Positions 38,954 through 64,000 of a stretch of 64,000 nucleotides of DNA are shown here, in pieces. Each line of letters begins with the position of its first letter. Position 1 is the first letter of the stretch. Where the stretch lies: assembly GCA_907163375.1 (NCBI GenBank), contig CAJQUW010008996.1, positions 5,001 through 69,000 on the forward strand. The letters are read 5' to 3'. The notes under the pieces are model-generated. The model had not been told where the DNA came from and did not search any database. It worked only from the letters and a program-made list of their open reading frames with translations. Position numbers and translations under genes: made by a program. Source of the stretch: Prostheceraeus crozeri. Its lineage: Eukaryota > Platyhelminthes > Polycladida > Euryleptidae.

Positions 38954-39194
38954 CTTATTTTCTTCCTTTTCCTTCCATTATCTTATTCTTTGACTTAATT
39001 TTTTGGTTTAATGTGTCATTAAACAAGAACTGAAGATTCCTATTTCACACATTACATGACGTCGTCACCAAGCTTTCTATGTCAGATCTCTGTTCGCAAT
39101 ATCTGTTTAACTATCAGGTCAATTTTCGCATTCCCGTGTACATACTTTAAAGAACGGGCGAAGCACCGTATCACAACCACTATTGTTTTTAATT
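38954..39194. other. 3' untranslated end of Penelope copy 2
   Basis: The first part (38954 to about 39080) is repeated almost exactly after the Penelope frame at the right edge of the window (63871-64000), so it belongs to the element. The element ends near 39190, where the 1.59 kb unit resumes. Confidence 0.7.
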
Positions 39195-39825
39195 TCTTAC
39201 ACAAATATTTGAGCATTGTCAATAACATTTTCACAGCTAATGAAGGTTTCTGTAACAATTCAAGTGAACAATGACATGATTCTTAATGAGCTGTAACCTA
39301 GCTACTGCACATCCGCGCAACTATGAAGATAACTCCATTCAGAAGCATGCACTGTAAATCCAATGCTACCAAACCGATTACATGCTTGTTACCAAATGCT
39401 CTATTTCTCCTCATTTGGTAGCATTGCTGCTGTCTGGTAGCAATACTACTAAACCTGTATGGTGCCGACCAGATGCTTGTTCTTCATCTAGTCGCAGAAA
39501 TATGTTAAAGCATAGAGTAGAGAAAGTACTTGTACATGTAATTTTCATAAAATTATATCATGAATGACAACAAATTTCTATCAAATGTGAAGTGGAAATC
39601 AATGCTATCGATAGTTGCTTATCCCATTGTCGTCTGAGTTCTCCATTATCGATATCAATTTCGTCTGAATTCAAGTTCTGTTTTTTTGATGCCATGTGGT
39701 ATTACTACATCTTTCTCTCCCTTAACAATTGTCTCGTTTTTATCAATTATTCGCAATAAAGACAAAGGTTTTATCCATTTATTGTGATACATTCCGAATG
39801 CAATCTTTCAAATGGTGATGTGTAT
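39195..39825. repeat. Degenerate relic of the 1.59 kb unit, right part
   Basis: The sequence resumes at ACAAATATTTGAGCA and follows the unit to CTTTCAAATGGTGATGTG. It shares the changes of the decayed array edge at 34850-35345 (for example CAATACTACTAAACC), so both descend from the same older variant. Confidence 0.85.
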
Positions 39826-39842
39826 TTTAGTAATGGGCAAAA

Positions 39843-40166: not shown

Positions 40167-41726
40167 AAAGGTGTCGTGCACGATAGTAGTAAGGAAGTGA
40201 CAAACACCAGATAGCGCAAGATGGCCGCCATCGCTGAGTCCCCCCCCCTCTGGCACGGCAGAGTGTCGTGGTCGGCCGCCGTTGTGCTTCGGGTCTGAGT
40301 CCCCCCCCCCCTCTGGAACGATAGAGTGTCGTGGTGGACTTGGGCGACCGCCAGGATTAGTCTTGAGGCTATAGTGTGTGATGTTTTTGGTGCAATCTGA
40401 TGAATGTTGGGTTGTAAAATGGGTTGTTTCGAGTGGAAGGAGTGGTCGGATGAGAAAACGGAGGTCGGATTCGTGTTCAGCGTGAAATTCTGCATCGGTA
40501 GGGTGAGTTTCAAGTCAATCGGAGAGAAAAAATTTTCGCTGACGTCCCCCCCCCCTCTGGACAGCTCGCTTCGATTTTGGCTTCCAGTGGACGGATTTTG
40601 TCGTGCGATAGCTCGTTTGAAAGCTAAGAGTGAGACAAATTCAGTGAAAGAATCGGCTTGTTCCTATCTGTCTTCGTTCAAAAGTTAGAGCGGTTACAAG
40701 ATTTTAGGTCGGAGCTCGCTTACCTGAAAAAATCCTAAGTGTCAGAGTGACTTTGTATGGGTAAAATTTTGAAAATTTTCCAAAGTGTGGAATTTCGACC
40801 TGGGACCGTCACCAAAACATTTTTCATCAAATTCTGAAATTTCACTGACGTCCCCCCCCCTCTGGACAGCTTGCTTCGATTTTGGCTTCCAGTGGACGGA
40901 TTTTGTCGTGCGATAGCTCGTTTGAAAGCTAAGAGTGAGACAAATTCAGTGAAAGAATCGGCTTGTTCCTATCTGTCTTCGTTCAAAAGTTAGAGCTGTT
41001 ACAAGATTTTAGGTCGGAGCTCGCTTACCTGAAAAAATCCTAAGTGTCAGAGTGACTTTGTATGGGTAAAATTTTGAAAATTTTCCAAAGTGTGGAATTT
41101 CGACCTGGGACCGTCACCAAAACATTTTTCATCAAATTCTGAAATTTCACTGACGTCCCCCCCCTCTGGACAGCTTGCTTCGATTTTGGCTTCTAGTGGA
41201 CGGATTTTGTCGTGCGATAGCTCGTTTGAAAGCTAAGAGTGAGACAAATTCAGTGAAAGAATCGGCTTGTTCCTATATGTCTTCGTTCAAAAGTTAGAGC
41301 GGTTACAAGATTTTAGGTCGGAGCTCGCTTACCTGAAAAAATCCTAAGTGTCAGAGTGACTTTGTATGGGTAAAATTTTGAAAATTTTCCAAAGTGTGGA
41401 ATTTCGACCTGGGACCGTCACCAAAACATTTTTCATCAAATTCTGAAATTTCACTGACGTCCCCCCCCCTCTGGACAGCTTGCTTCGATTTTGGCTTCCA
41501 GTGGACGGATTTTGTCGTGCGATAGCTCGTTTGAAAGCTAAGAGTGAGACAAATTCAGTGAAAGAATCGGCTTGTTCCTATCTGTCTTCGTTCAGATGTG
41601 AGACACCATTTAAGATTTTGGGACATTGGCGAAAAACGACAGAGTTAGAATTTGGGACGTTTTGGGCTGTAGCACCAAAACGAAGCATCGGACGGGTAAA
41701 CGGATTTCAGATTTGGAATCAGCGTG
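40167..41726. repeat. Polinton left terminal inverted repeat
   Basis: Matches the reverse complement of 62125-63235. It includes four tandem copies of a 304-306 bp module beginning GACGTCCCCCCCC at 40541, 40847, 41152 and 41456. Open frames read through the module are repeat artefacts, not genes. Confidence 0.9.
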
Positions 41727-42023
41727 AAATTCTTTATCTGTATGGTAAGTTTCATGTCAATCGGAGAGTTTCAAGTCAATCGGCGAGAAAAATTTTCAAC
41801 ATTTTTCGGAAAAACGACAGAGTTAGAATTTTTGCGATGGCTGCCTAATGTAGAGCCAAAACGAAGCATCGGATGGGAAAACGGAGGCCAGATTCGGATT
41901 CAGCGTCAAATTCTACATGGAAATGGTGTATTTTCAGCTCAATCGGAGCACTAGAACCGGAGATAGACGGGATTTTTAGTGTTTGGATGATGGGTGTTAC
42001 GTCATCAGCTGATCGCCACACAC
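41727..42023. other. Inner left flank of the TIR, no gene
   Basis: Degenerate further copies of TIR modules (motifs such as AAAACGAAGCATCGGA and TTTCAAGTCAATCGG) run up to about 41960. The promoter of the first left-end gene follows. Confidence 0.6.
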
Positions 42024-45826: not shown

Positions 45827-48800
45827 ATGGTAAGTTAAAGATTTCCTCTCTCATCTCCCTCAAACGTGTGACTAATAGCATCTTCCTCAATTTCAGGCAT
45901 CAACTTCATCACCAACGTCCTCTCTTCTCGAGGAAAGTTTAGAGTTATTGAGTCAAGGTAGGTTGTAACACTACACTGAGGCTTGAACAGAGATGATAGA
46001 ATGATTTCTCCTTCAGGCGATGCGAGTTCCAGCTCAGAACTGTCGCGACATGGCAACGAGTGGGAATGTGCTGACTGTGGGCACATCTTCACGAGGAAAT
46101 GGGATCTCACCCGACACATCAAGCGAGGTGTTTGTCGACCTAAGCCGGCATCAATCTCCGAAGGTGGGGATGATTCTGTTAACGTCGTCTCCTTTTCTTG
46201 CGACTTGTGCGCTCAGTCTTTCGAGACACGTTTTGAACTATCTTCGCACAGACTTCAACATACACACACGAACGATACCTACACCAACGGTACCTCCTCT
46301 ATCCGACTCACTGAAGTGTCCATAAATAATTTAGTGAGGAACTACCAGATGGACTCCTCAGAAACCATTGCTAACTTTGAGGAATGGTTTCATCAAAATT
46401 CATCATTGATAGAAGCGCTCTTCAACAATTTAGACAATTTTAGGATGAAGGCGCTCATCTATCTTAAAATAAAATATGTAAAAATCGACCACCATACTGG
46501 ACAAATAATAGAGAGGTTAGAGTTTCACATACCCTACTCTCCTGCAACCGAGGTTGTAGACTATGAGTCTTGGATAAATTTTCACATCCAAGGATTAAAA
46601 TTAAATATTGATAAATTTAACGAGCGCGATAGCGGTCTCATTTTTGACGGTATTGAGTCCGCCATGATTAAAATCAGTTTATTAGGAAATCATAGTGGTC
46701 GAGGCTCCTTTAAACTTCCAAAAAATTTAAAAAACAAAACAGCAGTCATCAATGTCGATTGCGAATCGCAATGTTTTAAATATGCTGTCCTCTCCATTCT
46801 CCACTATAATGACATCAATGCGAATCGAAATCGCACATATAGCTATAGGCAGTGGGAGAATGAATTAAACTTTGATGACTGTAATAGTGACGATATGAAA
46901 ATTAAAGATATAGAAAAATTTGAAAAATTGAACAACATCAAAATAGTTCTCCATGTTTGGGAAAAAGGATTGAAGGGTGTGCGCTACAACTCGCGTCCGA
47001 GTTGTTATGAGCGTACAGTAAACCTGTTATTAGTAAAACAGGATGATAGTGAGGAATGGCACTACTGCGGTATTCCCAAAATCTCTCGCTTATACCACCA
47101 CTTAGAAAACTCTAGTAGAGAGTTATATTACTGCGACAGATGTATTCGCCACTTTAGGAGGAAAACTAAATTTGAAACTCATTATGAGTGGTGTAAGCGA
47201 GGTAAACTGCAAATGGGACGCATGCCCAAAGATAAGGAGTTTTCATATAGAGAGAATGGCGATGAACTAAGTCCTCTTCGTGTCATCTATGCTGACATCG
47301 AATGCTATATCGATGATAACATCCATCGACCAGCAGACATTTCCTGCTATGAAGTATGGCATGATCACTTTAGGAGTAGGCAAAATAAAATGCGCGTCTG
47401 GCAAGGTGAGGATTGTATTTACCAATTCCTACAATTCCTCGAACAGGCTGTAAAATTTCAACAAAAGTATGATGGTGAACTCCATCGCAGATCATTGCAT
47501 ATGACAGCAGATGATCAAGCAAAATTTGATAGCTGCAACATTTGCCCCAAATGTAGGAAAACATTTGATGATGATAAGATTAAGAAAGTGCGCGACCATG
47601 ATCACATCACTGGTAAATTTAGAAACGCACTCTGTTCAAAATGTAATTTTTCACTTAGGATGAAACGGCGTACATTACCCGTCATTTTCCATAATTTCAA
47701 AGGCTACGACAGCCATATGATAATAAAAGGAGGTTTAGGTCAAATGAAAGAGTGGAAGCTTGATGTAATAGCGCAAACGAGAGAGAAGTTTATGGCCATG
47801 ACAGCAAAAGTGCCTGTCGATAAAACTAAAGAAAATAAGACGGTCTATTTTGATATAAAATTTTTAGATTCCTACCAATTTATGACTGCATCACTGGCCT
47901 CTCTCGTGCAAAATCTAAAGTCTCTTCCACTAACACAAAATCTTAAGAAACAATACCCAAATCTAACCGATGAAGTCATCACACGGAAAGGAGTCTTTCC
48001 ATATGCATATTTTGATGCGATTAGTAAACTCGGCGAGACTTCTCTTCCGCCCATAGATAAATTTAAAAATGATTTGACCGGCGCAGAATGTAAGACCGAA
48101 GATTATGATCATGCACAAGATGCATGGATAAAATTTGACTGCCATACATTTGGTGAATATATGATTGCCTACCTTAAGTTAGATGTATTTTTGCTGGCTG
48201 ATGTATTTCAGGAGTTTCGACGAGTGGCATTAGAAGAAGATAAGTTAGATCCCGTCCACTTTGTCAGTCTGCCAGCCATGTCATTTAAGTCTGCTTTTGA
48301 AATGACTGGTGAGACCATTCATCTCTTACAAGATCCAGAGATGTATAATTTATTTGAGCGAGGAATTCGCGGTGGTCTCACATTTGTAAATAAACATAGG
48401 TTAAAATCAAAAATAGTAGGCAATGACCAGACTCATCTGAAGTATTATGACCAAAATAATTTGTATGGTAGTTCATTATCCAAACCGCTACCTCACTCTG
48501 AGTTTAGCTGGTTAGATGATAGTGATATTCAACATTTCTCCAACCCTTCTAACATACTAGCAATTCCAGATGAAGGTGATTGGGGATATTATTTTGAGAT
48601 AGATCTAATCTATCCAAATAATATTAAACATAAAACCGTAGATTTTCCACTCGCACCCGAATCAGGTGAAGTGAGTAAAGATATGTTTTCCGACTTTATG
48701 AAACAATTTCATAAAGATTTAGAATCATGTGGACAACCCGACTATAAGCCTTGTCGCAAACTTTTACTCACCCAGTATGATAAAGAAAACTATCTAGTCC

Positions 48801-49798
48801 ACTTTAGCATCTTAAAATTTTATTTAGAAATGGGCATGATTTTAAAAAGAGTTCACCGCATTATTAAATTTAGACAGAAAGCCTTCCTCAAGCCATATAT
48901 TGATAGCAACAGCCAGAAACGTGCACTAGCCCAAAATAACTTTGAAAAAGATTTTTATAAATATAAGAACAACAGTCTATTTGGTAAGACGATGGAGGAT
49001 GTTAGAAAGCGCGTAAACTACAAACTAGTTAATGATGATCAAAAGTATCACAAATTGACCTCATCACCTCTATTCATCGATAGAGACATTATCGATGAGG
49101 ACCTTATAAGTGTTAAAATGATAAAATCTGAAGTTGAGTTGTGCAAACCCATCTATATTGGTCAAGCTGTACTAGATTATTCTAAGCTTGAAATGTACCA
49201 ACTCTTTTATAAAATACTAAAACCATGTCCTCTCGTAAAAGAGGTTCGTTTGTTGGGTGGTGATACAGATAGTTTCTTCTTAGGTATTACCACTCAAAAA
49301 GATTTAAATTTCAATGAAGTAGGAAAATCTTTAGAAAGATATTTTGATACATCAAATTATCCTGCTGATCATCCAGTCTACTCCATCAAAAATAAGGCAA
49401 AACTTGGCTGCTTTAAGGTTGAGACAGCAGGGAAGGAAATAGATGAAATGATTCTCCTCCGTCCAAAAATGTACAGTATGAAATTAAAGGATAGTGATGA
49501 TAGCATTAAGCGCGCTAAAGGCATATCAAAATCCATAGTGCAAAATATGAAACATAGGAATTTCAGGAAAGCCTATAGAAATAAAAATATAACGTTTGTC
49601 AATATGACAATCTTAAAATCTAAGTCGCATGAGATCAAAACTCATACTTTTAGGAAACGGGCGCTTTCAGCATGGGAGGATAAGAGGTGCTGGTTAGAAC
49701 ACAACATATCTCTTCCACATGGACATCCTGACACAAACATACCACCACCCAAAAGAATTAAACTCACACTACCACATTCAGGAGACGTCTTAGCATAA
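45827..49798 (+). CDS. polB: Polinton protein-primed-type family B DNA polymerase, two short introns
   Basis: Exons 45827-45829 (the ATG alone), 45897-45957 and 46017-49798; introns of 67 and 59 nt begin GTAAGT/GTAGGT and end TTTCAG/CTTCAG. The phases join exactly to give about 1281 residues. Order: two C2H2 zinc fingers (from about residue 39), a domain also found in the 60.0-60.4 kb gene (about 133-247), then a possible papain/OTU-like region with Cys274 (CFKYAV) and His370 (EWHYCGI). The proofreading exonuclease follows (D448 and E450 in YADIEC, D586, D744), then polymerase motifs A (DQNNLYG, D833), B (NNSLFG, about 1007) and C (D1104 and D1106 in GDTDS). It replicates the element. All catalytic residues are present and no break is seen. 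Confidence 0.95.
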
Positions 49799-50103: not shown

Positions 50104-51624
50104 TCACTTTGTTTTCCGAAACACTAACGTTATGAGGGATTTAGTATCTTTCACATGGATGCACTCTTGTAAACCATTGGTAATTTTGATAGCAATAGAG
50201 GGTATAGTTTGTTTGACGACGGGATGATAGAAAATAGATTCAAACATCTTCTCGACTATTCCATATGAAGCGTCTTTATCATGAATGAAATCACGTAAAA
50301 TGTATTCTTTTCTCTCACCAACAGAAATAGGTAGAATCAAATCACTTTGAATGTAAAGGTGCTGTTCATGTTTATCAAGTGTCATTGGTGTTTCTATACC
50401 AATCGTATGCGCAGCAGCAAACACTGTTTGTAGCATTGAAAAACCAAAGAGTTTTTTCAAATTTTTACTCAATTGACATTGAATGTCATCACCCAGTTTC
50501 AGAACAACGCGTTGATTTTCAATTGAAAACGAAATGTGGTGTGTCCTTACATCATATTTACTTTTCATCACATGCTTCAACTTCTGTTGTATATAAGGAT
50601 TTACTACATGAATGAAGCTTTCAACTGTATGATATAGACGCGGCATTATATTGATAGCAACTTTAGATTCTTCATAAGACTGGTAAATTTTCTTGATGCG
50701 ATCGCCATAGATGTCCACCCACCATTCATCATTAACTGAATCAGCTTTAGTGTGATATTCATGAGAAGCATACACCACACCGCTTCCAATAATAGGTGTA
50801 TAATGTCTTACAAAATGATGCAAGGTTGGAGAGAAATAAACTGTAAGTTTGTCATTATATTTCTGAATAACCAACTTATTTTTGTCCGCCATAATTTTTT
50901 CTCCATACTTCTTACCCACAGTCTCATTCCATCGTTTTACTAACTCAATAAGTGATAAAGGTTGAACACCACGCTTTTTCAAAATGATGCGTTCTTCGCA
51001 TTCTACAACATCTTCATCAAATATTTTAAATCTATAATGAAATTTGTTGATTCGATTTGAATAAACTTTTCTAACATTTGCAGTAGCAATTGACGTTAGA
51101 TGTAGTCCATAACCAAAACCAAGATGCGGATAGAATTCACTATCCAACCTCAGCGTAAGACTTTTAGTAAAAGAATGAAAGCGGAGGAACTGTCTCCCAC
51201 TCCAATGATAGATAGTAAACTCATAAGCTTTCTGATTTTTATTCTTCATGATAGAAGTATTACCACTGTTGAATGCCTTAATAATTTTCTCATTCCCAAA
51301 TGGCTCATAAGAATCTGATTTTATCTGAATCCATTCATAGTTCCATTTTCCATCTGATGTTAAATTGTATGGGAACTGGAATGCATTATTCATCGTTATT
51401 CCATCATGGGTGCGAGGAGTCAATATCATTTCTTCCAAATCATTCACATTCTGAATATTGCTATCATAGCAAATACTAGAAACGCCAACCTCCCATTCAC
51501 CTTCTAAATGCAGTGGCCGATTTAATTCTACTCGATAGTCTGATGGTTTATTTTTGGGAAATTTATTCATAGAAGCATTACTGGGCAAGTAGATTAGAAA
51601 CGAGTCCTTATTTTCACTTTCCAT
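50104..51624 (-). CDS. Polinton structural-type protein, WEVG family (paralogue 1)
   Basis: The preferred start is the ATG at 51624 (MESENKDSF), which aligns with the conserved N-terminus; an upstream in-frame ATG at 51654 would add 10 residues. The first 50 residues carry a signature (SFLIYLPSNASMNKFPKN, then LEGEWEVGVSSI) widespread in animal Polinton open frames. The remaining 450 residues are beta-rich with no recognised domain. The neighbour at 51.7-53.1 kb is a paralogue with the same signature. Position beside capsid genes and size suggest a virion surface or fibre component, but that is inference. A TGCAAA motif lies at 51658-51664. Confidence 0.8.
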   Translation of the reverse strand: MESENKDSFLIYLPSNASMNKFPKNKPSDYRVELNRPLHLEGEWEVGVSSICYDSNIQNVNDLEEMILTPRTHDGITMNNAFQFPYNLTSDGKWNYEWIQIKSDSYEPFGNEKIIKAFNSGNTSIMKNKNQKAYEFTIYHWSGRQFLRFHSFTKSLTLRLDSEFYPHLGFGYGLHLTSIATANVRKVYSNRINKFHYRFKIFDEDVVECEERIILKKRGVQPLSLIELVKRWNETVGKKYGEKIMADKNKLVIQKYNDKLTVYFSPTLHHFVRHYTPIIGSGVVYASHEYHTKADSVNDEWWVDIYGDRIKKIYQSYEESKVAINIMPRLYHTVESFIHVVNPYIQQKLKHVMKSKYDVRTHHISFSIENQRVVLKLGDDIQCQLSKNLKKLFGFSMLQTVFAAAHTIGIETPMTLDKHEQHLYIQSDLILPISVGERKEYILRDFIHDKDASYGIVEKMFESIFYHPVVKQTIPSIAIKITNGLQECIHVKDTKSLITLVFRKTK

Positions 51625-51657
51625 ATTATTCACATTGGAAAAATATAATAGCATACT

Positions 51658-51664
51658 TTTGCAT
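51658..51664 (-). promoter_or_regulatory. TGCAAA-type late promoter motif, copy 1
   Basis: ATGCAAA on the minus strand, 34 nt before the start at 51624, followed by an AT-rich TATTATATTTTT. It overlaps the stop of the upstream gene. Confidence 0.5.
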
Positions 51665-53061
51665 TAACTCTTCATTCGGAAATGGAGTGTAATACTTGTC
51701 ACAGCATCTTTATGAAAAGGAATCAACGCACCAGCATCATCATAAATGGCAATATCAATTTGTGGGATGTAGTTTGATTTCAGCTTTGTATAATGCACTT
51801 TCTTGAAAGTATGCTCAGATAAAATACTGCAGCTTTTTGGCTGGTATGGTATCATTGCTAGCAATGGAGCTTCAACATCTCCCACACGTACATCTTCACC
51901 AATATTGGAATATATCTGAAAATAGTTAATACGAAGCGATAGCGACATGTCTGCGCTAGCTTTGGTTACAGTACCACTTTTAAAGATATTTTGATCAAAA
52001 CCCAAAATGTCCATTAGAGTTTTATCCATAATTAGTTCAATACCTTTTCCACTTATAGTGAGAGACAAAGTACCTTCTTTTTCAGAAAATGAAATATGTT
52101 GCTCATTAATCACTTCATTTAAATAATCTACAACCAATTTAACCGAAGTAATAATGCGAGGCATCAACACTCTTGTTTCATGTAAGAAACCACCAAAAGG
52201 CTCTACACACTTTCTGTATAAAGATACGGCCCATTCTGTATCAAATTGATTTGGCCTTTCACATGGTAAATGTTGCATATCAGATTTTCCATGAACAGCT
52301 GCAGAACGATGTCGTAAGAACTGATGAAAATCTTTTGAACAAACTAATACTAGATCATCATCATTTAATTTGCTTATTGCAATATGATTAGATGATTTGA
52401 TATAAGTCAATGTTGCCACTTGTTTACCATCAACTCGAAGGAGATAATTAAATTTCTTCAATAATGTTTCAGGAGTCATGTTTGTCTTTCTTGGCTTAAT
52501 CACAATCTTCTTCACCAACGCCTTCTCATTTCTTGGAATAAGATCTACATAATAAGCTTCCTCTCGATATATTAACTGTTTATGACCACTTATGTGGTAA
52601 TTAACGTTAAAATTATCATAGCTTGTTAAGGCGCTAGCGAGGTAGCCTAAATCATTTCTTAAACTTGCACTTAAACCAACAATCCAATCTTTCTCAACTA
52701 CATGATGTACATAATTATAATCATCATTGTGCGGAGTAAATTGGACAATATGTTTACTCGCTTTATTCAAGAAATCATATATAAACTTTTTACATGATAA
52801 GAGATCTTTCTTTGACCACTGTGGAATGTATACTCGGCACCCCTTTTCACATTGATAAGCAGCTGTACGCCTCATATTAATAGTCATCACCTCATGATCA
52901 AAAGTATAGACACAGTTGCTATAAACAAGTTGAGTGACACCCACTTCCCAATTTCCATTTAGCTGTTGTACATGATCAATGGGAGTAGAAAAGAGTGCAG
53001 CTCGATTACTAGTAAATCTCTTTGTAGCCGCATTGCTACGCAAAATATGATAAAACGACAT
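51664..53061 (-). CDS. Polinton structural-type protein, WEVG family (paralogue 2)
   Basis: The start chosen is the ATG at 53061 (MSFYHILRSNAA), which matches the N-terminal signature of paralogue 1; an in-frame ATG at 53082 is possible. LNGNWEVGVTQLVY repeats the LEGEWEVGVSS element at the same place. The later parts share the pattern of three similar beta-rich blocks, each ending in an FLRHRS- or FVRHY-like motif. The function is unknown; tandem duplication of one structural gene is the simplest history. It is divergent from the plus-strand gene at 53097, with only 35 nt between starts. Confidence 0.8.
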   Translation of the reverse strand: MSFYHILRSNAATKRFTSNRAALFSTPIDHVQQLNGNWEVGVTQLVYSNCVYTFDHEVMTINMRRTAAYQCEKGCRVYIPQWSKKDLLSCKKFIYDFLNKASKHIVQFTPHNDDYNYVHHVVEKDWIVGLSASLRNDLGYLASALTSYDNFNVNYHISGHKQLIYREEAYYVDLIPRNEKALVKKIVIKPRKTNMTPETLLKKFNYLLRVDGKQVATLTYIKSSNHIAISKLNDDDLVLVCSKDFHQFLRHRSAAVHGKSDMQHLPCERPNQFDTEWAVSLYRKCVEPFGGFLHETRVLMPRIITSVKLVVDYLNEVINEQHISFSEKEGTLSLTISGKGIELIMDKTLMDILGFDQNIFKSGTVTKASADMSLSLRINYFQIYSNIGEDVRVGDVEAPLLAMIPYQPKSCSILSEHTFKKVHYTKLKSNYIPQIDIAIYDDAGALIPFHKDAVTSITLHFRMKS

Positions 53062-53083
53062 TTTTATATTGCTAATCTGCAAC

Positions 53084-53090
53084 TTTGCAT
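53084..53090 (-). promoter_or_regulatory. TGCAAA-type late promoter motif, copy 2
   Basis: ATGCAAAGTTG on the minus strand, 23 nt before the ATG at 53061. It sits in the 35 bp gap shared with the divergent plus-strand gene, so one site may serve both. Confidence 0.5.
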
Positions 53091-53096
53091 AACATC

Positions 53097-53453
53097 ATGA
53101 AGACTTGGATTTTGGACTCTCTACAATATATCAGAGTTGATCGTGATGGAAACGTACATTTCAAAAATTCTCATGGTCATATTTCAAGAGGAATTACATT
53201 AACATGGCGACAATTTGTCAACCTCAATGATATCATGAGGGATTTGGAATATTTTGAAACATTAAGATTCATCTCCTTGGGTGATCAAGTTTGGCTTCAA
53301 CATTACAGAAATGAAATTCAAATCTACCATTCTCATTCCGCAAACTGTTTCTCATTTCGCAAATACAATTGGGAGAAGTATAGAAGATATATACATCGCT
53401 CCATCATGACATTTATTCGTCGTGAGTTCATCGCCCTACTATGCAAATCTTAA
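53097..53453 (+). CDS. Small basic Polinton protein, possibly PC4-like (copy A)
   Basis: 118 residues from ATG 53097; an ATG at 53085 is in frame, but 53097 aligns with the start of copy B. It seems to contain the same pattern twice: residues 8-52 (YIRVDRDGNVHFKN, then GITLTWRQFVNLNDIM) and about 60-105 (VWLQHYRNEIQIYHS, then NWEKYRRYIHRSI). Each is strands followed by a helix with Trp. ISRGITLTWRQF is reminiscent of the KGISL..QW motif of the coactivator PC4, a single-stranded-DNA-binding protein. This assignment is weak. It is followed by a frameshifted paralogue and a TBP-like frame on the same strand. Confidence 0.6.
   Translation: MKTWILDSLQYIRVDRDGNVHFKNSHGHISRGITLTWRQFVNLNDIMRDLEYFETLRFISLGDQVWLQHYRNEIQIYHSHSANCFSFRKYNWEKYRRYIHRSIMTFIRREFIALLCKS
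53440..53447 (+). promoter_or_regulatory. ATGCAAAT motif before copy B
   Basis: Plus-strand copy of the TGCAAA motif, 29-36 nt before the ATG at 53476. It overlaps the end of copy A. Confidence 0.4.
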
Positions 53454-53475
53454 TCAGACATGACTACCACACATC

Positions 53476-53927
53476 ATGAGTTGGAAATTAGATTCCCTAC
53501 AACGTATTGAAACGGATCATGATCGAAACGTCTATTTCAAAGATTCAACTGGAAATGTGAGAAGAGAGTTTCTTTATCTTATCGTCATTTTCAATCTCTA
53601 CATCATATCATGAAGGACTTGAAATACTTCTATATGAAAAGACATTCACGTATTGGAAATCGCATCTGGCTGCGCGTCAACAATCGGCGAATTCAACTCT
53701 ATCATTCCCAACTTCATACTAACTTCACATTTCATCAAGGTAGTTGGGAAAAGTATAAAAGGAAGGTACATCGCTCAATTTACTCATTCTTTCATCATGA
53801 AGCGCCATCGCTACACCATCGTCAACATTCTCCGTCGCTTCAGACTCTACACCAAAATCGATCTCACAACATTACACCAAACACCTTCCAAACAGCAAGT
53901 ATTACCCGGGCCGTCCTCAAATGTTAG
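53476..53927 (+). pseudogene. Paralogue of the PC4-like protein (copy B), frameshifted
   Basis: The ATG at 53476 opens a frame closely similar to copy A (SWKLDSLQRIETDHDRNVYF). Near 53568 the similarity moves to another frame, as if one base were lost, and continues with HHIMKDLKYF, RIGNRIWLRVNNRRIQLYHS and SWEKYKRKVHRSI, again matching copy A block by block. The extra C-terminus to 53927 overlaps the TBP-like frame and has no counterpart in copy A, so the real end was probably near 53810. A tandem duplicate with one frameshift. Confidence 0.7.
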
Positions 53928-54343
53928 TGGTGAAGATGAACAATTCACGAAATCTTCAACTCTTCCCAAATGGGACTGTACAGATTCTCGGCGCCCTTTC
54001 TCATTCATCGGCGCAGTCAATGCGCTTAGAGCTACAAAGACTACTACGTCGGATATGGAAGAGGGAGAGGTGTGTGATGTCGAATCTGACTGTGGACAAT
54101 ATGGTGATCTCTACTCAATTGAGTGACAGTCTATCATTTTTGAAGATTCGTACCAGCAGTTACAGTTTGTGTTATGAACCCGAACTTTTTCCTGCAGCTC
54201 TCATTAGTTGTTGGTTACCTGTGCATGTGGCAATCTTTCATAATAGTAAAGTGATCATTACTGGACTAAAATCTCATGTACAAGCAAATATGATCCTAGA
54301 CTATCTCATTGAGTATGTACGTACCCAGCGGATTGTAAAATAA
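53797..54343 (+). pseudogene. TATA-binding-protein-like gene, two repeats, one frameshift
   Basis: Two TBP-type repeats can be read. Repeat 1 begins YTIVNILRRF with KIDLTTLHQ near 53850 in one frame and continues one frame over, from about 53880, to LQLFPNGTVQILGALS. Repeat 2 (54077-54330) starts LTVDNMVIST, contains YEPELFP as in the second repeat of cellular TBP, and ends VAIFHNSKVIITGLKS, matching the IF.SGK.V.TGAK strand of TBP. Spacing of conserved Asn, Tyr and Pro residues across the frame change equals that in TBP, as if one base were inserted near 53880. Cellular TBP nucleates promoter complexes at TATA boxes. An AATAAA overlaps the stop. No host-type N-terminus or intron is seen. Confidence 0.75.
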
Positions 54344-54369: not shown

Positions 54370-54831
54370 TTATTTCAAATCATGATAGAACTTACAAATC
54401 ATTTTTTCATTAGAGGATGGATTACATGAAAAGTTTTGAATAATAGATGCAAATCGAGATACATGTAAACGTTTTAAGATGAAGTACAGTACAAAAGCAC
54501 CACACGTTGATGAAAGTGGATGTTGTAGTATGCGTTCATTTCGCTGATATTGACGCGTATGTTTTCTCAACCACTGCTGTGTTGGTATATTTGGAGGTTG
54601 AGCAAGAGAGTCAAATAGTTCACCACGTCGGTCTTCTCCAATAAAGATCGCTTTCCAATGCTCACCGCCTAAATTCTGTGAATGAGTGTTTAGCACAATA
54701 AAGATGGGATAGTGATTTACTGCAGGTGGTAAGGTATCGAGTGAATAGACATTATCGAAAGCTTTCAACGTCGCTTCGTCTGCATTACGCTGCACTTTAG
54801 TCTTAATATCGTCAGCAGTCAACCAACTCAT
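54370..54831 (-). CDS. Adenain-like cysteine protease (Polinton PRO)
   Basis: 153 residues. His58 in GGEHWKA, Asp74 in ELFDSLA, Gln103 in ILQHPL and Cys110 in SSTCGAFVLYF reproduce the adenovirus/Ulp1-type catalytic set, including the seven-residue spacing between Gln and Cys typical of adenain. The role expected from the family is processing of capsid and core precursors at Gly-Gly type sites during maturation. The ATG overlaps the stop of the upstream capsid gene by one base (TAATG), so coupled translation is possible. The stop overlaps an AATAAA. The domain is complete and no break is seen. Confidence 0.92.
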   Translation of the reverse strand: MSWLTADDIKTKVQRNADEATLKAFDNVYSLDTLPPAVNHYPIFIVLNTHSQNLGGEHWKAIFIGEDRRGELFDSLAQPPNIPTQQWLRKHTRQYQRNERILQHPLSSTCGAFVLYFILKRLHVSRFASIIQNFSCNPSSNEKMICKFYHDLK

Positions 54832-56108
54832 TAACGATTATACTGAAGAATCACGTCACGATACTTTGTAATTTCAATATTTGAATCGAAGACTGCATAA
54901 ATTAATACATTGATCGTCTCAGGTAGTGTTCTTTTGAATGTCAAATCCAAACGAATGTTATGAGGCACGTTCGCTTGACGATAGGGTGCACTAATATCGC
55001 TGTCAGCAGTCAAATCAAATGCATAAATAGTATATCCACTCTTAAACTCTTTCATAGTCAGTCCGTTGGTGTCATCCGTATTGTAAAAGCCAAAAACATC
55101 CATAAAATCAACATAACTGCGCATAAATTGATCCGAAGCAAAATCTGGTTTGTAGGGTGGACCAGGATGACTCACACCATTTACACGTAAAGCAATTTCA
55201 CTTAACTGATTGTGTTTAAAATTGAAAGGATTCTTCTTTATATTACCATTAAATGCATCATTTTCAACCATTGCCACCATGAGGAGCTTCGGTGCTTCCG
55301 ATGGAAAGAGGCCATCTTTCATGAAACTATTTTGATCTTTCGGAATTGTAAAGGTGAGAAGCTTTGTATGCTGAACGGGGTAAATGGCATTTTGGCGGTT
55401 AAGGCCTTCAGCATGCCCTCTAATGACACTTGGATTCGGTACTACTCGACGAATGTAAAGTGCAATATCTTCCACATGAATTCTAAAATTGTCAACTTTA
55501 GCAAATGCATTCAGCGCAAATTCAGGCTTATTCAATGTCAGCTTGAGTCGCATGCTGGTATGACAGAGTAAAAACTTTGACTGTCTAAAGAAGTCTAAAT
55601 TCAGCGGACCATATATCTGAAATACTCTACTATCTTTAATCATAGCAGATCGCTTTACAAAGCCACTGTTTGTTTCAACATCAAATTTTCCTGCTTCATC
55701 TCTGTACCATCCCATGGCTTCCATATGACTTTTTTGTGCTGCTGGATGAAACTGTGATACATGATTGAAATATGATTTATAGGGATAATCTCTTTGACCA
55801 CCTTCCACTTGCTGCTCTCCAATCGTTAGAGAAACATCACGAAGTAATGTAGTCAATGGTAAATTGTTCAGTCCAACTTTATGTGCATCGTCAATAGCAG
55901 TTCCATCTGCTTGCTGAATTCTAAACCTCAAATCAAGCATCGCATAACTCAAATCTATGTAGTCATCACTACCACCAGGAATAACAAATTCAATGGGGCC
56001 AGCATTCTCAGCTGTTCGAGGATGATAATCTACAATACTTGAACTAAGAATATCTGTCTGTATGGCTTGTTGATCGAACAAACAAAAACCGGAAGTTTTA
56101 CACTCCAT
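54831..56108 (-). CDS. Candidate major capsid protein (double jelly-roll type)
   Basis: 425 residues, rich in predicted beta strands. It carries the conserved Polinton signature near the N-terminus (GPIEFVIPGGSDDYIDLS, about residues 38-55). Later segments are PLNLDFFRQSKFLL, a long IHVEDIALYIRRVVPNPSV stretch, LLTFTIPK, and a C-terminal IYAFDLTADSD with INVLIYAVFDSNIEIT. Its size, its position directly before the protease and its resemblance to a gene conserved across animal Polintons support the capsid role. The fold itself cannot be proved by reading. It is probably the main virion shell protein. No disruption is seen. Confidence 0.8.
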   Translation of the reverse strand: MECKTSGFCLFDQQAIQTDILSSSIVDYHPRTAENAGPIEFVIPGGSDDYIDLSYAMLDLRFRIQQADGTAIDDAHKVGLNNLPLTTLLRDVSLTIGEQQVEGGQRDYPYKSYFNHVSQFHPAAQKSHMEAMGWYRDEAGKFDVETNSGFVKRSAMIKDSRVFQIYGPLNLDFFRQSKFLLCHTSMRLKLTLNKPEFALNAFAKVDNFRIHVEDIALYIRRVVPNPSVIRGHAEGLNRQNAIYPVQHTKLLTFTIPKDQNSFMKDGLFPSEAPKLLMVAMVENDAFNGNIKKNPFNFKHNQLSEIALRVNGVSHPGPPYKPDFASDQFMRSYVDFMDVFGFYNTDDTNGLTMKEFKSGYTIYAFDLTADSDISAPYRQANVPHNIRLDLTFKRTLPETINVLIYAVFDSNIEITKYRDVILQYNR

Positions 56109-56110
56109 GA

Positions 56111-56566
56111 TTAGAAGTTATAGCAGCGTCGTCGTTTAGCGCCTGATGAATGATTAGAGCCTCTGCGACGTTTGCGTGAATGCCTTTTGACTGAAGATCG
56201 CACCTTACCAGCTCCGCGATGTTTCCTCCTTCCTTTATTCATTCGTTTAGGTGATTTCTTTCCTTGAGTAACACCAGCAATGGTCTGCTTCAATGTTTTT
56301 AAACCGCGTTCCTTCCCACGATTCAACAAACTGCTCTTAAAACTTCTACCTCTGGAAAGATCACTAGCAACATCACCAGCAAAGCCAACGGCATTACTTA
56401 AAACATTTCGTTTTAAAGATCTACCGACATTGGATATGAGAGGTGCTACAACAGATTTCAGTGCACCAAGTATGCTACCTCCACGTTGGCGGCGAGCGCC
56501 GATGTAAATTTGTCCTCCGCCACTTACATAGGAGGGTCGTGAATAAAATGAGGCAGTTGGATTCAT
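56111..56566 (-). CDS. Small basic core-type virion protein (Gly-rich N-terminus, Arg/Lys-rich C-terminus)
   Basis: 151 residues. The N-terminus has YVSGGGQIYIGARRQRGGSI, with GG sites of the kind cut by adenain-like proteases, followed by an amphipathic hydrophobic stretch (LGALKSVVAPLI). The C-terminal half is dominated by Arg/Lys (SPKRMNKGRRKHRGAGK and RHSRKRRRGSNH). The layout recalls adenovirus minor capsid/core precursors that lyse membranes or condense DNA. It lies two bases upstream of the capsid gene on the same strand, with a TGCAAA motif 32 nt before its start. The role is inferred from composition and context. Confidence 0.75.
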   Translation of the reverse strand: MNPTASFYSRPSYVSGGGQIYIGARRQRGGSILGALKSVVAPLISNVGRSLKRNVLSNAVGFAGDVASDLSRGRSFKSSLLNRGKERGLKTLKQTIAGVTQGKKSPKRMNKGRRKHRGAGKVRSSVKRHSRKRRRGSNHSSGAKRRRCYNF

Positions 56567-56597
56567 AGCTCAAACCCTAAACATTGTTAGTTACAAC

Positions 56598-56607: not shown

Positions 56608-57833
56608 TCACTGTCGATCACTTAGATGAAAGATGTCGGCACGACGCATCCAAGAGTTCATACTTGAAGGATAACCAGTCCATTTAACAAGACACCATTC
56701 TTCACCTTGCCGTTTTTTACATCGAATGATTTTCTCTACCAAATATGTTTCACTTTCAGTGACTACCTCAATCTCATCGCGGTAAAAGCTACCCTCAATT
56801 TCTTCATTATCGTAATCTTTCAACTTGTAGGTGGTCGGAGAGTCTTTTTGATTAATCCTTGATACTGTAAATACCTCCTCTGTCCAATTTGGAAGGTACC
56901 CTTTAGCAAAAACACTTTTCACTTTTGAGATACGAACTTTATCGCCAATTTTCACATCACTTTTCACATGAGTGCGTTTACGTTGGAATGATTCGCGCAC
57001 TTTATCTACATTGTCAGCATTTACATCTACTGGTCTGAGTCCAATAGAACGATGGATAGAGTGATTGTAGGCATGGAGTGTATCTTGTAGAACCTTTGTC
57101 CAATTTTGTGTCAAGTTGGCATTAAGATGTCGCCACAAGCGATTTTTTAATGTGCGATTAAAACGTTCAACGAGTGCAGCTTTATAAGCGCTCTTTACAC
57201 TAAACAACTCAATGTCATGCCTCTCAAATAATCTTGTCACATGCTGATTTTCAAACTCTTTTCCTTGATTTGATCACTCTGAATTCTTTTTGGAATGCGA
57301 CCTTCTCGAAAAATTGTTTGGAATGCTTTTGCTACTCCTTTCCCTTCTTTAGTTTTTAAAGGTTGAGCCCACGCATAACGCGAGAAAATATCAATGACGG
57401 TTAAAATAAAATTATTGCCCGAGTTATGTTTTGAAATGGAGGCAACATCGCACAAATCTGCTTGCCACTGTTCATCGATGTCATGAACAATATAATGGCG
57501 GGTGCGGTACTTCTTTTTCGCTTGTGTGTGGAGTGTATAGGTAGCCTGACCCTTTAACCATCGTTTCACTTGTGATTGTGGAAGACCACTCGCTTTTGAT
57601 AATTTCTTGATAGATGCAAATCCTGCCGGATGTTTTACATCATAATAGATTGACTTCAAACGTTCAGTCGATGACGACTGACTCTTTTTCCTCCTTCTCA
57701 TCTTTTTGTTTTCTTCCCTTTCTACATTTACAACAACTGCAGCATTTAGCTTTAGCGGTTTTGCGATCGTGTTCACATTGCTTAGGGGTTTCATTATGAG
57801 AGCTGGCGCAGCAAGTGCAAGTGACAACGACAT
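56608..57833 (-). pseudogene. Polinton integrase with chromodomain, split by one frameshift
   Basis: The upstream frame (57833 to about 57240) has a helix-turn-helix region (residues 73-96), the first catalytic Asp126 in EQWQADLCDV and the second, Asp187, in RIQSDQ. It then runs into a stop about 15 codons later. The downstream frame (from 57240) supplies the catalytic Glu (residue 25, ALVERFNRTLK), an SH3-like C-terminal region (VKIGDKVRISK) and a chromodomain (YLVEKIIRCKK, then WCLVKWTGYPSS, about residues 166-204). The frames differ as if one base were lost near 57265. All three D,D,E residues are present but on different frames. Expected role: insertion of the element, with the chromodomain guiding site choice. 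Confidence 0.9.
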
Positions 57834-57880: not shown

Positions 57881-58573
57881 TTAATAGTCTGAGAACATGT
57901 ATTTCCTTGGAGGAGCTGTTTTACGTTTTCCTTTTACCAGTTTTAGTGGCGATGTAGATCTACGTCGAGTTCTTCCTCTTGTTTGCTTAGTGAGTGTGGG
58001 AGGGGATGTAGCAGGTGACGTCTTAAACCAATTTGTTGGCATTTTCATCGCCTGAAGCATTGGAGTAGTAGCCACTGTTGAATCAAGTTCTTTCAATGTC
58101 TCATTATTTAAAGCAAATTTTGGCACATTATGCTTTTTCAATAGTTTAAGAAAGTATGACCAACCAGGTGGAACATAGCCCTGACGGCGCTTTCTACGTG
58201 TCGCATACTGAATCAAGTCTTCATAACGTGAAGCATCAATCACTTTATTTTCATCTGTAATGATTTCTCCTCTATCATTTACATTGAGATGGGGTTCAAT
58301 ACTGTTGAAAAGAGATATGGCATGTGCGCGAGATGCTAAAGGTGTAGCAGTCGATACAGAGTCACGCATCTTATTCTTCAAGTTTTTCAATTGCTCAACA
58401 GTTTCCGATTGTAATAATACAGCACGATGTGGATCTTTGATGTGAACATTTTGCTGATAATCTATTTCTTTCCTATACATTTGATTTGCAAGAGGTTGCT
58501 TTACTTGCTGCATGGCAGTCAATTGTACATATTCATCCTGAGGAATAACAATCATGCGAGAATAAGAACTCAT
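57881..58573 (-). CDS. Conserved Polinton protein of unknown function (230 residues)
   Basis: The N-terminus is RMIVIPQDEYVQL, followed by a long helical, coiled-coil-like part (about residues 40-75). A central IQYATRRKRRQGYVPPGW, then FLKLLKKHNVPKFALNNET, follows, and a very basic Ser/Thr/Pro/Arg-rich tail ends the protein. Similar proteins are a regular companion of the ATPase in animal Polintons as far as I recall, but no function is established. The stop of the upstream ATPase gene overlaps its ATG by 4 nt (ATGA), so it is probably co-expressed. A virion or DNA-packaging role is possible. Confidence 0.7.
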   Translation of the reverse strand: MSSYSRMIVIPQDEYVQLTAMQQVKQPLANQMYRKEIDYQQNVHIKDPHRAVLLQSETVEQLKNLKNKMRDSVSTATPLASRAHAISLFNSIEPHLNVNDRGEIITDENKVIDASRYEDLIQYATRRKRRQGYVPPGWSYFLKLLKKHNVPKFALNNETLKELDSTVATTPMLQAMKMPTNWFKTSPATSPPTLTKQTRGRTRRRSTSPLKLVKGKRKTAPPRKYMFSDY

Positions 58574-59235
58574 AGTTTGTAGATAATCATGGGAGTTTTC
58601 AAAATATCACTTCGAAATCTAAATTCTTCCGGACACTCTTGCGTAAAGTCAATGAATAAGTAACCGTATGGTTTTTCAGTAGCTGCTTGAAAAATTTCAA
58701 TTAAGGCTTTTGATCCTCTGGGTGCAACTTGTCGCGCTAAAATTTCAAATTGACTTTTATCTCGCGGATTCTTGAAAATAGCATAATAGTGTGTATTCAG
58801 GTTTCGTGTACGAGCTTCTTTTCCATCAGGAAACAAATTTTGTGTAATATAGATGATAAAACACCTTTTATGGTGTGCTGCGCGAGTGAACATATCTGTA
58901 ACATCTTTTGAATTCTTACTTTCTTTTAATAAATCATCCAATACAACAACATCATTAGACTGAAGTTTATCCACTGGAATAATTCCTTCATGTCGAATAA
59001 AGTTGCGACTTTGCAATTCCTGAAACAGCGACGGTTGATAAATACCATAACACCAAATCACTCGATTGATAGGTTCCTTAAACAACTCCCTTCTTTTATC
59101 CAATAAATTCAGCGTGAAAACAGTTTTACCTGCATGAGATGGACCTGATACAGTCAGAACTTTATCACATTGAAGTCTGAAATCCATTTTATTACTTTGA
59201 GACTCAACATTTGCATAATTAACGCTTAGAGCCAA
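58570..59235 (-). CDS. Genome-packaging ATPase (FtsK/HerA, A32-like)
   Basis: 221 residues from the ATG at 59235, or 205 if the ATG at 59187 (MDFRLQCDK) is used. The latter sits 23 nt after a TGCAAA motif and would not overlap the upstream core gene. Walker A is GPSHAGKT at residues 31-38 and Walker B is VVVLDD at 96-101; a downstream YITQNLF resembles the sensor segment. The size and motifs are those of Polinton and adenovirus-like packaging ATPases that drive DNA into preformed capsids. The downstream gene starts at its stop in an ATGA overlap. No break is seen. Confidence 0.92.
   Translation of the reverse strand: MALSVNYANVESQSNKMDFRLQCDKVLTVSGPSHAGKTVFTLNLLDKRRELFKEPINRVIWCYGIYQPSLFQELQSRNFIRHEGIIPVDKLQSNDVVVLDDLLKESKNSKDVTDMFTRAAHHKRCFIIYITQNLFPDGKEARTRNLNTHYYAIFKNPRDKSQFEILARQVAPRGSKALIEIFQAATEKPYGYLFIDFTQECPEEFRFRSDILKTPMIIYKL
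59210..59216 (-). promoter_or_regulatory. TGCAAA-type late promoter motif, copy 4
   Basis: ATGCAAATG on the minus strand, inside the end of the core gene and the first codons of the longer ATPase frame, 23 nt before the ATG at 59187. This position favours the shorter ATPase start. Confidence 0.45.
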
Positions 59236-59575
59236 AGATATTTCCCAATAGGTTGCCCACGGCAGGAGCTATCATTGGAAGTATTGCTGAAAGGAAACCG
59301 CCCTTTTGTGTTAGAGTTTTCCTCTTTCTTTGAAGGGCGACTTTAGGATTGGAGATGAAACGCAATTTCGTAGCATATCGCTTAAGTAACTTTCGTTGTT
59401 TTGGCGCTAATTTCTTCGTCCTCGACTTCCTCACATGAGAAATAATTTCACAAATGAATTTATCGTTAGCATGTCGTATAGCATTGTATCGCTGATTTGC
59501 TTTCATTCGTCGGAGAGCTTGAATGGCTGAGGAAAACTTTTGACTTTTACGTTTCGTCATTTTACGTTTCGCCAT
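59219..59575 (-). CDS. Basic core-type protein with GG site and hydrophobic C-terminus
   Basis: 118 residues. The Lys/Arg-rich start (AKRKMTKRKSQKF) and helical middle (LRRMKANQRYNAIRHANDKF) are followed by basic RKSRTKKLAPKQRKLLKRY. A QKGG site comes before a hydrophobic amphipathic tail, FLSAILPMIAPAVGNLLGNI. A basic body followed by GG and a membrane-active tail resembles pX/pVI-like precursors of adenovirus-type virions, released by the viral protease. It overlaps the ATPase frame by 17 nt. The role is inferred. Confidence 0.75.
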   Translation of the reverse strand: MAKRKMTKRKSQKFSSAIQALRRMKANQRYNAIRHANDKFICEIISHVRKSRTKKLAPKQRKLLKRYATKLRFISNPKVALQRKRKTLTQKGGFLSAILPMIAPAVGNLLGNIFGSKR

Positions 59576-59614
59576 TTTCCGTGTTAGTCTTTGCTAAAAC
59601 CTATCTTTACCACA

Positions 59615-59621
59615 TTTGCAT
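59615..59621 (-). promoter_or_regulatory. TGCAAA-type late promoter motif, copy 5
   Basis: ATGCAAATG on the minus strand, 40 nt before the start at 59575. Confidence 0.5.
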
Positions 59622-62124: not shown

Positions 62125-63235
62125 TCAAGCTGATTCCAAATGTGGCCTCCGTTTACCCATCCGAGCCTTCGTTTTGGTGCTACAGCCCAAAACGTCCCAA
62201 ATTCTAACTCTGTCGTTTTTCGCCAATGTCCCAAAATCTTAAATGGTGTCTCACATCTAAACGAAGACAGATAGGAACAAGCCGTTTCTTTCACTGAATT
62301 TGTCTCACTCTTAGCTTTCAAACGAGCTATCGCACGACAAAATCCGTCCACTGGAAGCCAAAATCGAAGCAAGCTGTCCAGAGGGGGGGGGGACGTCAGT
62401 GAAATTTCAGAATTTGATGAAAAATGTTTTGGTGACGGTCCCAGGTCGAAATTCCACACTTTGGAAAATTTTCAAAATTTTACCCATACAAAGTCACTCT
62501 GACACTTAGGATTTTTTCAGGTAAGCGAGCTCCGACCTAAAATCTTGTAACCGCTCTAACTTTTGAACGAAGACAGATAGGAACAAGCCGATTCTTTCAC
62601 TGAATTTGTCTCACTCTTAGCTTTCAAACGAGCTATCGCACGACAAAATCCGTCCACTGGAAGCCAAAATCGAAGCGAGCTGTCCAGAGGGGGGGGGGAC
62701 GTCAGCGAAAATTTTTTCTCTCCGATTGACTTGAAACTCACCATACCGATGCAGAATTTCACGCTGAATCCGAATCTGGCCTCCGTTTTCTCATCCGATG
62801 CTTCGTTTGGGCGCTACACACCAAAACGTCCCAAATTCTAACTCTGTTAAAATTTTGAAGAAAAATTTTTTCTCACCGATTGCCTTGAAACTCACCCTAC
62901 CGATGCAGAATTTCACGCTGAACACGAATCCGACCTCCGCTTTCTCATCCGACCACTCCTTCCACTCGAAACAACCCATTTTACAACCCAACATTCAGCA
63001 GATTGCAGCAAAAACATCACACACTATAGCCTCAAGACTAATCCTGGCGGTCGCCCAAGTCCACCACGACACTCTATCGTTCCAGAGGGGGGGGGTGGGG
63101 GACTCAGACCCGAAGCACCACGGCGGCCGACCACGACACTCTGCCGTGCCAGAGGGGGGGGGACTCAGCGATGGCGGCCATCTTGCGCTATCTGGTGTTT
63201 GTCACTTCCTTACTACTATCGTGCACGACACCTTT
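62125..63235. repeat. Polinton right terminal inverted repeat
   Basis: Inverse of 40167-41726, but with only two 306 bp modules (GACGTC at 62392 and 62698). It has an additional duplication of the segment around the GATGCAGAATTTCACGCTGA motif (62751 and 62903), which the left end has once at the matching place. Confidence 0.9.
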
Positions 63236-64000
63236 GCTCACCAAAGTTTTTACAGGAAGAAGAGGCCCATCTTGAGAATATCTTAATCAAGAATGGATAT
63301 CCCAGATGGTTTATCAAAAAACATTCTACCGACATGAATAAAGTTGCCTATGAAACAGTTCGGAAAAAGCCGATTATGGTATGTATGCCGTATTATGAAC
63401 CTCAAAGCAGTGTTTTGGCTCAACAGTTGTCTAAAGTGGTGAACAAGACCTATTTCCATCTCAAGACGTTTGTGACATTTTACACCAAACGCTTAGGTCC
63501 TGTCGCACCGAAGGATCCTGTGCCGCTTCCCTTCCAGAACACTCTTGTCTATGAATTTAGTTGCGCTTGCGGCGCAAGCTACATAGGGAAGTTGCAGAGG
63601 GCTCTTCAAGAACGGTTGAAAGATCACATCCCAAAATGGCTAGCGCAGAGTTCAAGCAGACCAAGATCGTCGAAACTGCCAGCATCCAGCTTCAACAGAC
63701 ACTTGCAGTTATGCCACCATCGAACATTAGCCTCAATCAACGATTTCAAATGTTTAAAAAAGTGCAGCAGTTCGTTTGATTTGTATGTAACTGAAGGACT
63801 GGCCATCAAGTGGTTCAAACCAGTGTTGTGTGTCCAAAAAGATTTTGTATTTCCAAGTACTTGTCTATAGCTTATTTTCTTCCTTTTCCTTCCATTATCT
63901 TATTCTTTGACTTAATTTTTTGGTTTAATGTGTCATTAAACAAGAACTGAAGATTCCTATTTCACACATTACATGACGTCGTCACCAAGCTTTCTATGTC
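63214..64000 (+). pseudogene. Penelope-like element copy 3, truncated (RT end and GIY-YIG), cut by window end
   Basis: From YYRARHLCSPKFLQEEE onward the frame is nearly identical to copy 2 at 38.3-38.95 kb, including the GIY-YIG-type YEFSCACGASYIG and the C-terminus at 63870. The following 130 nt of 3' flank also match. The N-terminal and RT catalytic parts are missing because the Polinton right end lies directly upstream. The open frame that starts at 63199 is a chimera whose first codons are Polinton TIR. Almost no divergence from copy 2 implies a recent common source. Confidence 0.88.

Follow-up and report, generated by a model that had tools for sequence, protein, structure and literature searches.

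Does a mobile element in the genome of the flatworm Prostheceraeus crozeri carry a TATA-binding protein (TBP) of its own, and if so, might that protein control the element's own promoters? The question is raised by 64,000 nucleotides of contig CAJQUW010008996.1 (assembly GCA_907163375.1, positions 5,001 to 69,000; hereafter the window), which contain an element of about 23.1 kb between inverted repeats. A preliminary description of the window had read two TBP-type repeats, the first of them split by a frame change, in the plus-strand cassette of what was taken to be a Polinton. The gene in question is as follows.

53797..54343, plus strand: TBP-like gene, about 181 codons if unbroken, with a frame change in the first quarter; PF00352 E 1.6e-14; intact copies elsewhere in the genome

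Both repeats were indeed recovered. The frame at 53801-54343 (180 codons) matched Pfam PF00352 in two stretches at 53.9 bits, the curated cut-off being 22.9 bits, and matched solved TBPs in the PDB at E 2e-12. The first repeat starts in a different frame, at the ATG at 53797 (MKRHRYTIVNI...), and its remainder lies in the 53801 frame, as had been described; the initial piece, when isolated, gave no match in the Pfam scan. An intact copy (L044) scored 72 bits against PF00352 (E 3.7e-20), also in two stretches, and five relatives were all above the cut-off, with two stretches in three of them and one in the other two (P0013, P0127). The profile search and the structure prediction that had been proposed as checks were both favorable, in that the match was far above background for the window frame as well as the L044 copy, and the predicted fold was the TBP saddle; chance similarity to TBP was rejected. 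That a Polinton carries the gene agrees with the inverted repeats of the element and with an integrase that is above the Pfam cut-off in the L044 copy. Overall, the evidence supports the gene as a TBP-family member inside a Polinton-type element. Its product, which in L044 is a bare 181-amino acid core without a long N-terminal extension, was filed as a TBP-fold relative rather than an ordinary TBP, since only three of the four intercalating phenylalanines are present.

The split of the TBP-like frame in the window is a lesion. It is recent, because the window differs from the unbroken L044 copy by a single gap, with no substitution over 540 bases. A scan of the genome (2.05 Gb, 14,165 contigs) yielded 17,049 first-look candidates, of which 150 matches were scored, a lower bound on the number of TBP-like copies. 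By hand count, 98 of the 150 align over residues 26/27-180 only, and for 96 of these 98 the surrounding open frame has 234 codons or more, enough for the whole TBP gene. The lesion of the window was common to 5 of 29 other fetched copies, which had been chosen as the best matches to the broken frame, such that broken copies are over-represented among them. A programmed frameshift is not favored, considering that 96 of the 150 scored matches are each contained in a single long frame and that so few of the fetched copies have the lesion. Stops inside the TBP frame were found in the family III copy (L040/L048) and in the family IV copies L036/L047 and L038.

These families are diverged relatives in the same genome, in which the TBP gene again stands beside Polinton-type genes. 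Family I includes the window element and L044. Identity in family II (L046) is 53% for the putative major capsid protein (MCP) and 58% for the putative polymerase (POLB); in family III (L048), it is about 52% for MCP; and in family IV (L047, L053, L054, L055), where the TBP gene is near the POLB end, it is about 54-73% for POLB over the longer pieces. Recurrence of the gene between the protease-like gene (PRO) and the WEVG genes had been suggested as a further check, and in families I-III the TBP gene was indeed located beside both. In L055:6124-9636, two neighboring POLB pieces are in opposite orientation, which suggests an inverted duplication in this copy.

The host has its own separate TBP (L031, 123.7 bits), as well as a TRF2-like gene (L032, named by eye). 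A profile of 22 sequences was run against database proteins and, out of 7,144 candidates, matched 1,066 at E<=0.001; 120 of these are listed, and there may be ordinary TBPs among the rest. The longest contigs of the matched proteins, those of P0011, P0070, P0073, P0088 and P0127, are 15-25 kb, with a maximum of 24.5 kb; the Polinton context of the contigs is assumed from similarity, and some database members bear source-given names such as 'TATA-box binding protein'. A tree was built of 43 rows. Of these, 29 were Polinton-type proteins (families I and II together with 27 of 123 database proteins) and 12 were archaeal TBPs; the remaining two, the TBP and the TRF2-like piece of the host, were its only eukaryotic rows, and giant-virus TBPs were left out. 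The Polinton-type proteins formed a single clade with support of 100/100, separate from the archaeal TBPs, the host TBP and the TRF2-like piece, so that orthology of the element TBP to the host TBP was not upheld; the stem of the clade is very long, and the deeper origin is therefore unreadable from the tree. Because the host TBP is separate and the tested Polinton-type proteins group together at the end of a very long stem, long residence of the gene in the element, as had been claimed earlier, is supported by these sequence comparisons, and recent capture of the host TBP is ruled out by the same separateness and distance. IMG/VR was scanned with three queries (the single protein, the alignment and the host TBP), and none of them returned a relative.

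As to function, the idea of the preliminary description that the element TBP would control its own promoters has indirect support from two features, a promoter box distinct from TATA and an unequal divergence of the two lobes. The simplest account of the findings, to which we give an even chance, is that the element has a second TBP, specific to it, which steers host RNA polymerase II to late promoters of the element. In the proposed scheme, host TBP would bind an ordinary TATA box (TATAAAA) to drive the TBP gene; the element TBP would in turn bind a box at the TATA position, TA(A/T)GCAA(A)(G/T), 25-55 nt upstream of the WEVG, core and packaging-type genes; and its conserved C-terminal stirrup would recruit host TFIIB (and RNA polymerase II), by which the capsid-type genes would be turned on. 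The box binding, the TFIIB recruitment and the late timing are what we infer from the comparisons below.

For the lobes, 124 Polinton-type sequences (123 database proteins and L044), gathered by similarity, were aligned to the host TBP, with residues numbered as in yeast TBP and assigned their usual roles. In the C-terminal lobe, the DNA contacts N159, V161, F190, P191, F207 and T215 were invariant in 124/124, and the TFIIB-facing residues were kept (E186 in 121, E188 in 124 and L189 in 118). In the N-terminal lobe, N69 was kept in 112, the other 12 being gaps, and F116 in 124/124; F99 was replaced by Pro in 120, leaving three of the four intercalating Phe, L114 by Gln in 120, T124 by Leu, Met or Phe in all 124, and V71 by Met in 86 and His in 20, with Val in 6. 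L205 was Ala, Thr or Ser in every sequence. On helix 2, where the alignment is less sure, a host Lys that we take to face TFIIA was Glu in 94/124. The roles of the four Phe, and of proline at the first TATA position, are described in the excerpted text of PMC12529657. Together, the replacements in the N-terminal lobe (Pro for Phe99, Gln for Leu114, Leu for Thr124) and Ala in place of Leu205 would permit acceptance of G:C pairs that ordinary TBP excludes; Gln114 and the small residues at 205 are a plausible way to accept such pairs in the minor groove. With one lobe conserved and one rebuilt, the element TBP is a natural experiment on DNA reading by TBP.

The same residues bear on two other explanations. 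The protein could be a decoy or inhibitor that binds TFIIB or other host factors and dampens host transcription or defence; its TFIIB-facing residues are kept while its DNA-binding face is partly changed, as such a role would have it, but invariance of the DNA-facing residues of the C-terminal lobe in all 124 sequences is unexpected for a pure decoy, and we regard this role as quite improbable. It could also be a general TBP substitute that binds ordinary TATA boxes and does no more than increase the amount of TBP available to the element, which would then lack a promoter code of its own. Conservation of the C-terminal lobe and of three intercalating Phe would suit this role, but Phe99, Leu114 and Thr124 are replaced in at least 120 of the 124 sequences. 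The promoters are relevant here as well, since TATAAA precedes the TBP start in three of the four families (by 43 nt in family I, 46 nt in family II and 43 nt in family IV), which again would fit a general TBP. Among the 33 other starts of families I-III, however, TATAWA within 80 nt was found only before WEVG2 in family I and before PRO and core in family II (three of the 33, those from L056, were examined in the -55 to -25 zone alone, where they had none), and a general TBP is thus unlikely in our estimate.

The element-specific reading, in turn, draws on a second box, of the form A(A/T)GCAA. The TATA box and the candidate late boxes in the window are listed here; the genes that they precede are described further below.

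53754..53760, plus strand: TATAAAA box within the coding frame of ORFA, 43 nt upstream of the TBP start
53441..53447, plus strand: candidate late box ATGCAAA before ORFA, within the last ORFA0 codons
53084..53090, minus strand: candidate late box before WEVG2, between WEVG2 and ORFA0
51658..51664, minus strand: candidate late box before WEVG1, at the WEVG2 stop codon
56598..56604, minus strand: candidate late box before the core/MCP/PRO block
59210..59216, minus strand: candidate late box before ATP
59615..59621, minus strand: candidate late box before o59219

At -55 to -25, A(A/T)GCAA was present in 7/18 starts of family I (WEVG1, WEVG2, ORFA, core, ATP, o59219, o59953) and in 7/12 starts of family II (WEVG1, WEVG2, MCP, core, INT, o57881, o59219b); in shuffled controls, the mean was 0.58 for each family and none of 2,000 shuffles reached 7. 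When 6-mers were counted at the 33 starts of families I-III with no motif specified, AAGCAA (8 starts) and ATGCAA (7 starts) were the commonest; a 6-mer present in 8 starts arose in only 1 of 500 shuffles. In the clear cases, the box is about 30-48 nt from the start, as for a TATA-type element. In family III, a box before WEVG1 was seen by eye, additional to the scored start. Six of the eight occurrences of ATGCAAA in 42001-62100 are at gene starts, which also bears on a role of the protein in bending DNA at the ends of the element during replication or packaging. TBP does bend DNA, and in family IV the gene is near POLB; the location of these boxes at gene starts nonetheless speaks against that role, the element ends having not been searched for sites, and we find it very improbable.

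It is to be noted that several observations weigh against the element-specific reading. TATAAA is absent before the TBP start of family III. The late box was first spotted by eye, and the number of ATGCAAA over 42001-62100 as such (8) shows no enrichment relative to shuffles (7.5). The box was found at only one of three scored starts in family III, equaled by 181 of 2,000 shuffles, and at none of three in family IV (ORFA from two copies, and TBP); in family I, MCP, PRO and INT each lack a separate box. In family II, the boxes of MCP and o57881 fall within coding sequence of the gene before, and INT also scores for the box. We applied the labels 'late' and 'structural' on the basis of gene content, with the function of the WEVG genes unassigned. 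No sign of selection was seen in codon changes among family I copies, which is expected post-insertion. Lastly, the late box resembles the host octamer (POU) site, and because of this resemblance a host factor might bind it. The box may thus be read by a POU/octamer-like host factor, or by ORFA, with the TBP acting without contacting it, an arrangement compatible with the other alternatives. Here ATGCAAAT is like the octamer motif, and the putative fold of ORFA is of a nucleic-acid-binding type; on the other hand, the clear cases have the box at about -30 to -48, which fits a TATA element, and the family II starts and one family III start have TAAGCAA, unlike the octamer. We judge this arrangement possible, with the chances clearly against it. 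For a comparison of binding by the element TBP, the DNA sequences named are TATAAAAG versus TAWGCAAAG, and also TATGCAAAG and TAAGCAAAG. If the box is the target of the element TBP, the two would constitute a defined altered-specificity pair of TBP and promoter.

ORFA, which shares DNA with the TBP gene, and its neighbor are the following.

53475..54126, plus strand: ORFA, 216 amino acids if unbroken, in another frame and overlapping the TBP gene; broken here; L044:4289-4936
53097..53453, plus strand: ORFA0, a tandem paralogue of the ORFA N-terminal domain, with 36% and 42% identity to ORFA

The start of ORFA in the window was inferred by offset from L044, and the same lesion breaks both ORFA and the TBP gene. 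Its model has a putative N-terminal PUR/PC4-type fold (the bbbb-alpha repeat fold), suggested by fold search (Foldseek best E 0.005), and a long unstructured tail that overlaps the TBP gene and is conserved across families. No sequence match was found among Pfam and PDB families, which, together with the tail, distinguishes ORFA from PUR-alpha, Whirly and PC4; PC4 alone, considered as its identity, was widened to the PUR/Whirly/PC4 fold group after the fold search. In the ORFA0-ORFA tandem (53076-54126), the ORFA tail ends in (C/Y/T)(S/T)IE in most of the intact relatives seen. With its putative nucleic-acid-binding fold, ORFA would be a candidate partner of the element TBP. A private late switch of the Polinton, in which the conserved lobe recruits TFIIB, the rebuilt lobe reads TAWGCAAAG (a G:C-containing variant of TATA) and the TBP and its PUR/PC4-like partner are encoded in overlapping frames, is offered tentatively, at somewhat less than an even chance. 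If true, elements of about 23 kb would possess a compact equivalent of the six-protein late system of herpesviruses.

With cellular and archaeal TBPs (PF00352), the element TBP shares the two repeats, the saddle fold, the invariant Asn pair and the C-terminal stirrup YExELFP; it differs from solved TBPs in its low identity (about 19-27%), in the replacements at residues 99, 114, 124 and 205, and in being encoded by a mobile element. The TBP-like proteins of beta- and gamma-herpesviruses (KSHV ORF24, EBV BcRF1), which are virus-encoded and serve late promoters with the TATA variant TATT, are a functional analogy only. According to the excerpted text of PMC12529657, ORF24 keeps the four Phe, lacks the TFIIB-facing acidic residues and needs its C-terminal domain. 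The Polinton protein shows the reverse pattern, a Phe being lost and the acidic residues kept, and as a bare core it does not have the herpesviral architecture of a TBP-like domain with an RNA polymerase II-binding N-terminus and a DNA-binding C-terminal domain. Giant viruses and mirusviruses are likewise DNA viruses that encode the TBP fold, although they are much larger; compared by fold and sequence identity, with residues and promoters outside the comparison, their BFVD matches had 7-20% identity. Available passages report TBP in 59% of mirusvirus genomes (PMC10132985) and in megavirus and CpV-BQ1 (PMC11464507, PMC12085832). In the excerpts of these three papers and of PMC12220804, PMC10675990, PMC8097293, PMC10120064, PMC7786948, PMC8696169 and PMC12945077, mentions of TBP concern giant viruses, mirusviruses or unrelated matters. 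Virus-encoded TBPs are therefore already known from giant viruses, mirusviruses and herpesviruses, whereas we found no paper describing one for Polintons, Mavericks or adintoviruses in the open-licence literature, a scope outside which the main adintovirus paper falls; the same literature gave no account of the timing and control of Polinton genes. The motif GRPxM ... YExELFPA may serve as a sequence marker for finding TBP-bearing elements.

The remaining features of the element are as follows.

40169..41948, no strand: left terminal inverted repeat region; matches 62125-63235 in inverted orientation, at 97-98% in the main blocks and 78-87% in the short ones
62125..63235, no strand: right terminal inverted repeat region, inverted match to the left region
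45980..49798, plus strand: POLB, 1272-codon frame, with family-B polymerase motifs by eye only
50104..51663, minus strand: WEVG1, open frame of a gene conserved among families; no Pfam match at E<=10
51664..53094, minus strand: WEVG2, best Pfam match Inh, E 0.21, weak and below cut-off
54370..54837, minus strand: PRO, cysteine protease-like (Ulp1/adenain type); PF02902 E 0.0013, PF00770 E 0.045, below curated cut-off
54831..56117, minus strand: MCP, putative major capsid protein, by position and conservation
56111..56569, minus strand: core, small basic protein, putative virion component; same place in families I-III; Pfam matches below cut-off only
56608..57833, minus strand: INT, integrase with chromodomain, in two frames in the window copy
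58570..59268, minus strand: ATP, putative packaging ATPase; Pox_A32 E 0.026, below cut-off

Of the features expected of a Polinton/Maverick, terminal inverted repeats are thus present. A retrovirus-type integrase is evident from the L044 copy, where INT is a single 406-codon frame with rve at E 1.3e-10 (41.9 bits, cut-off 32.6) and Chromo at E 6.4e-7 (29.6 bits, cut-off 25.1); the pieces in the window gave rve at E 2.2e-6, below cut-off, and Chromo at E 2.8e-7. As to a protein-primed family B DNA polymerase, a polymerase match to the POLB frame was sought in Pfam and the PDB and none was found, the Pfam matches being Endonuclease_7 (Endonuclease VII-like) and a C2H2 zinc-finger-like domain; MCP likewise had no match in either database. 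The 6 bases flanking each repeat end, examined for a 6-bp target-site duplication in the window copy only, differ from each other. The adjacent large genes WEVG1 and WEVG2 (50104-53094) have a common N-terminal G-x-WEVG motif and are distantly similar (23% over 518 residues). At 59219-59593, a small basic protein had a weak match to adenovirus protein X (Adeno_PX-like, E 0.0026, below cut-off), which suggests an adenovirus-like core protein. A direct copy, 99.4% identical, occurs on both sides of the element (38297-39083 and 63214-64000), as if the element had inserted in or beside a repeat. Further upstream, 19583-35352 is a tandem array with units of about 1.59 kb, a related piece of which (39198-39828) adjoins the element.
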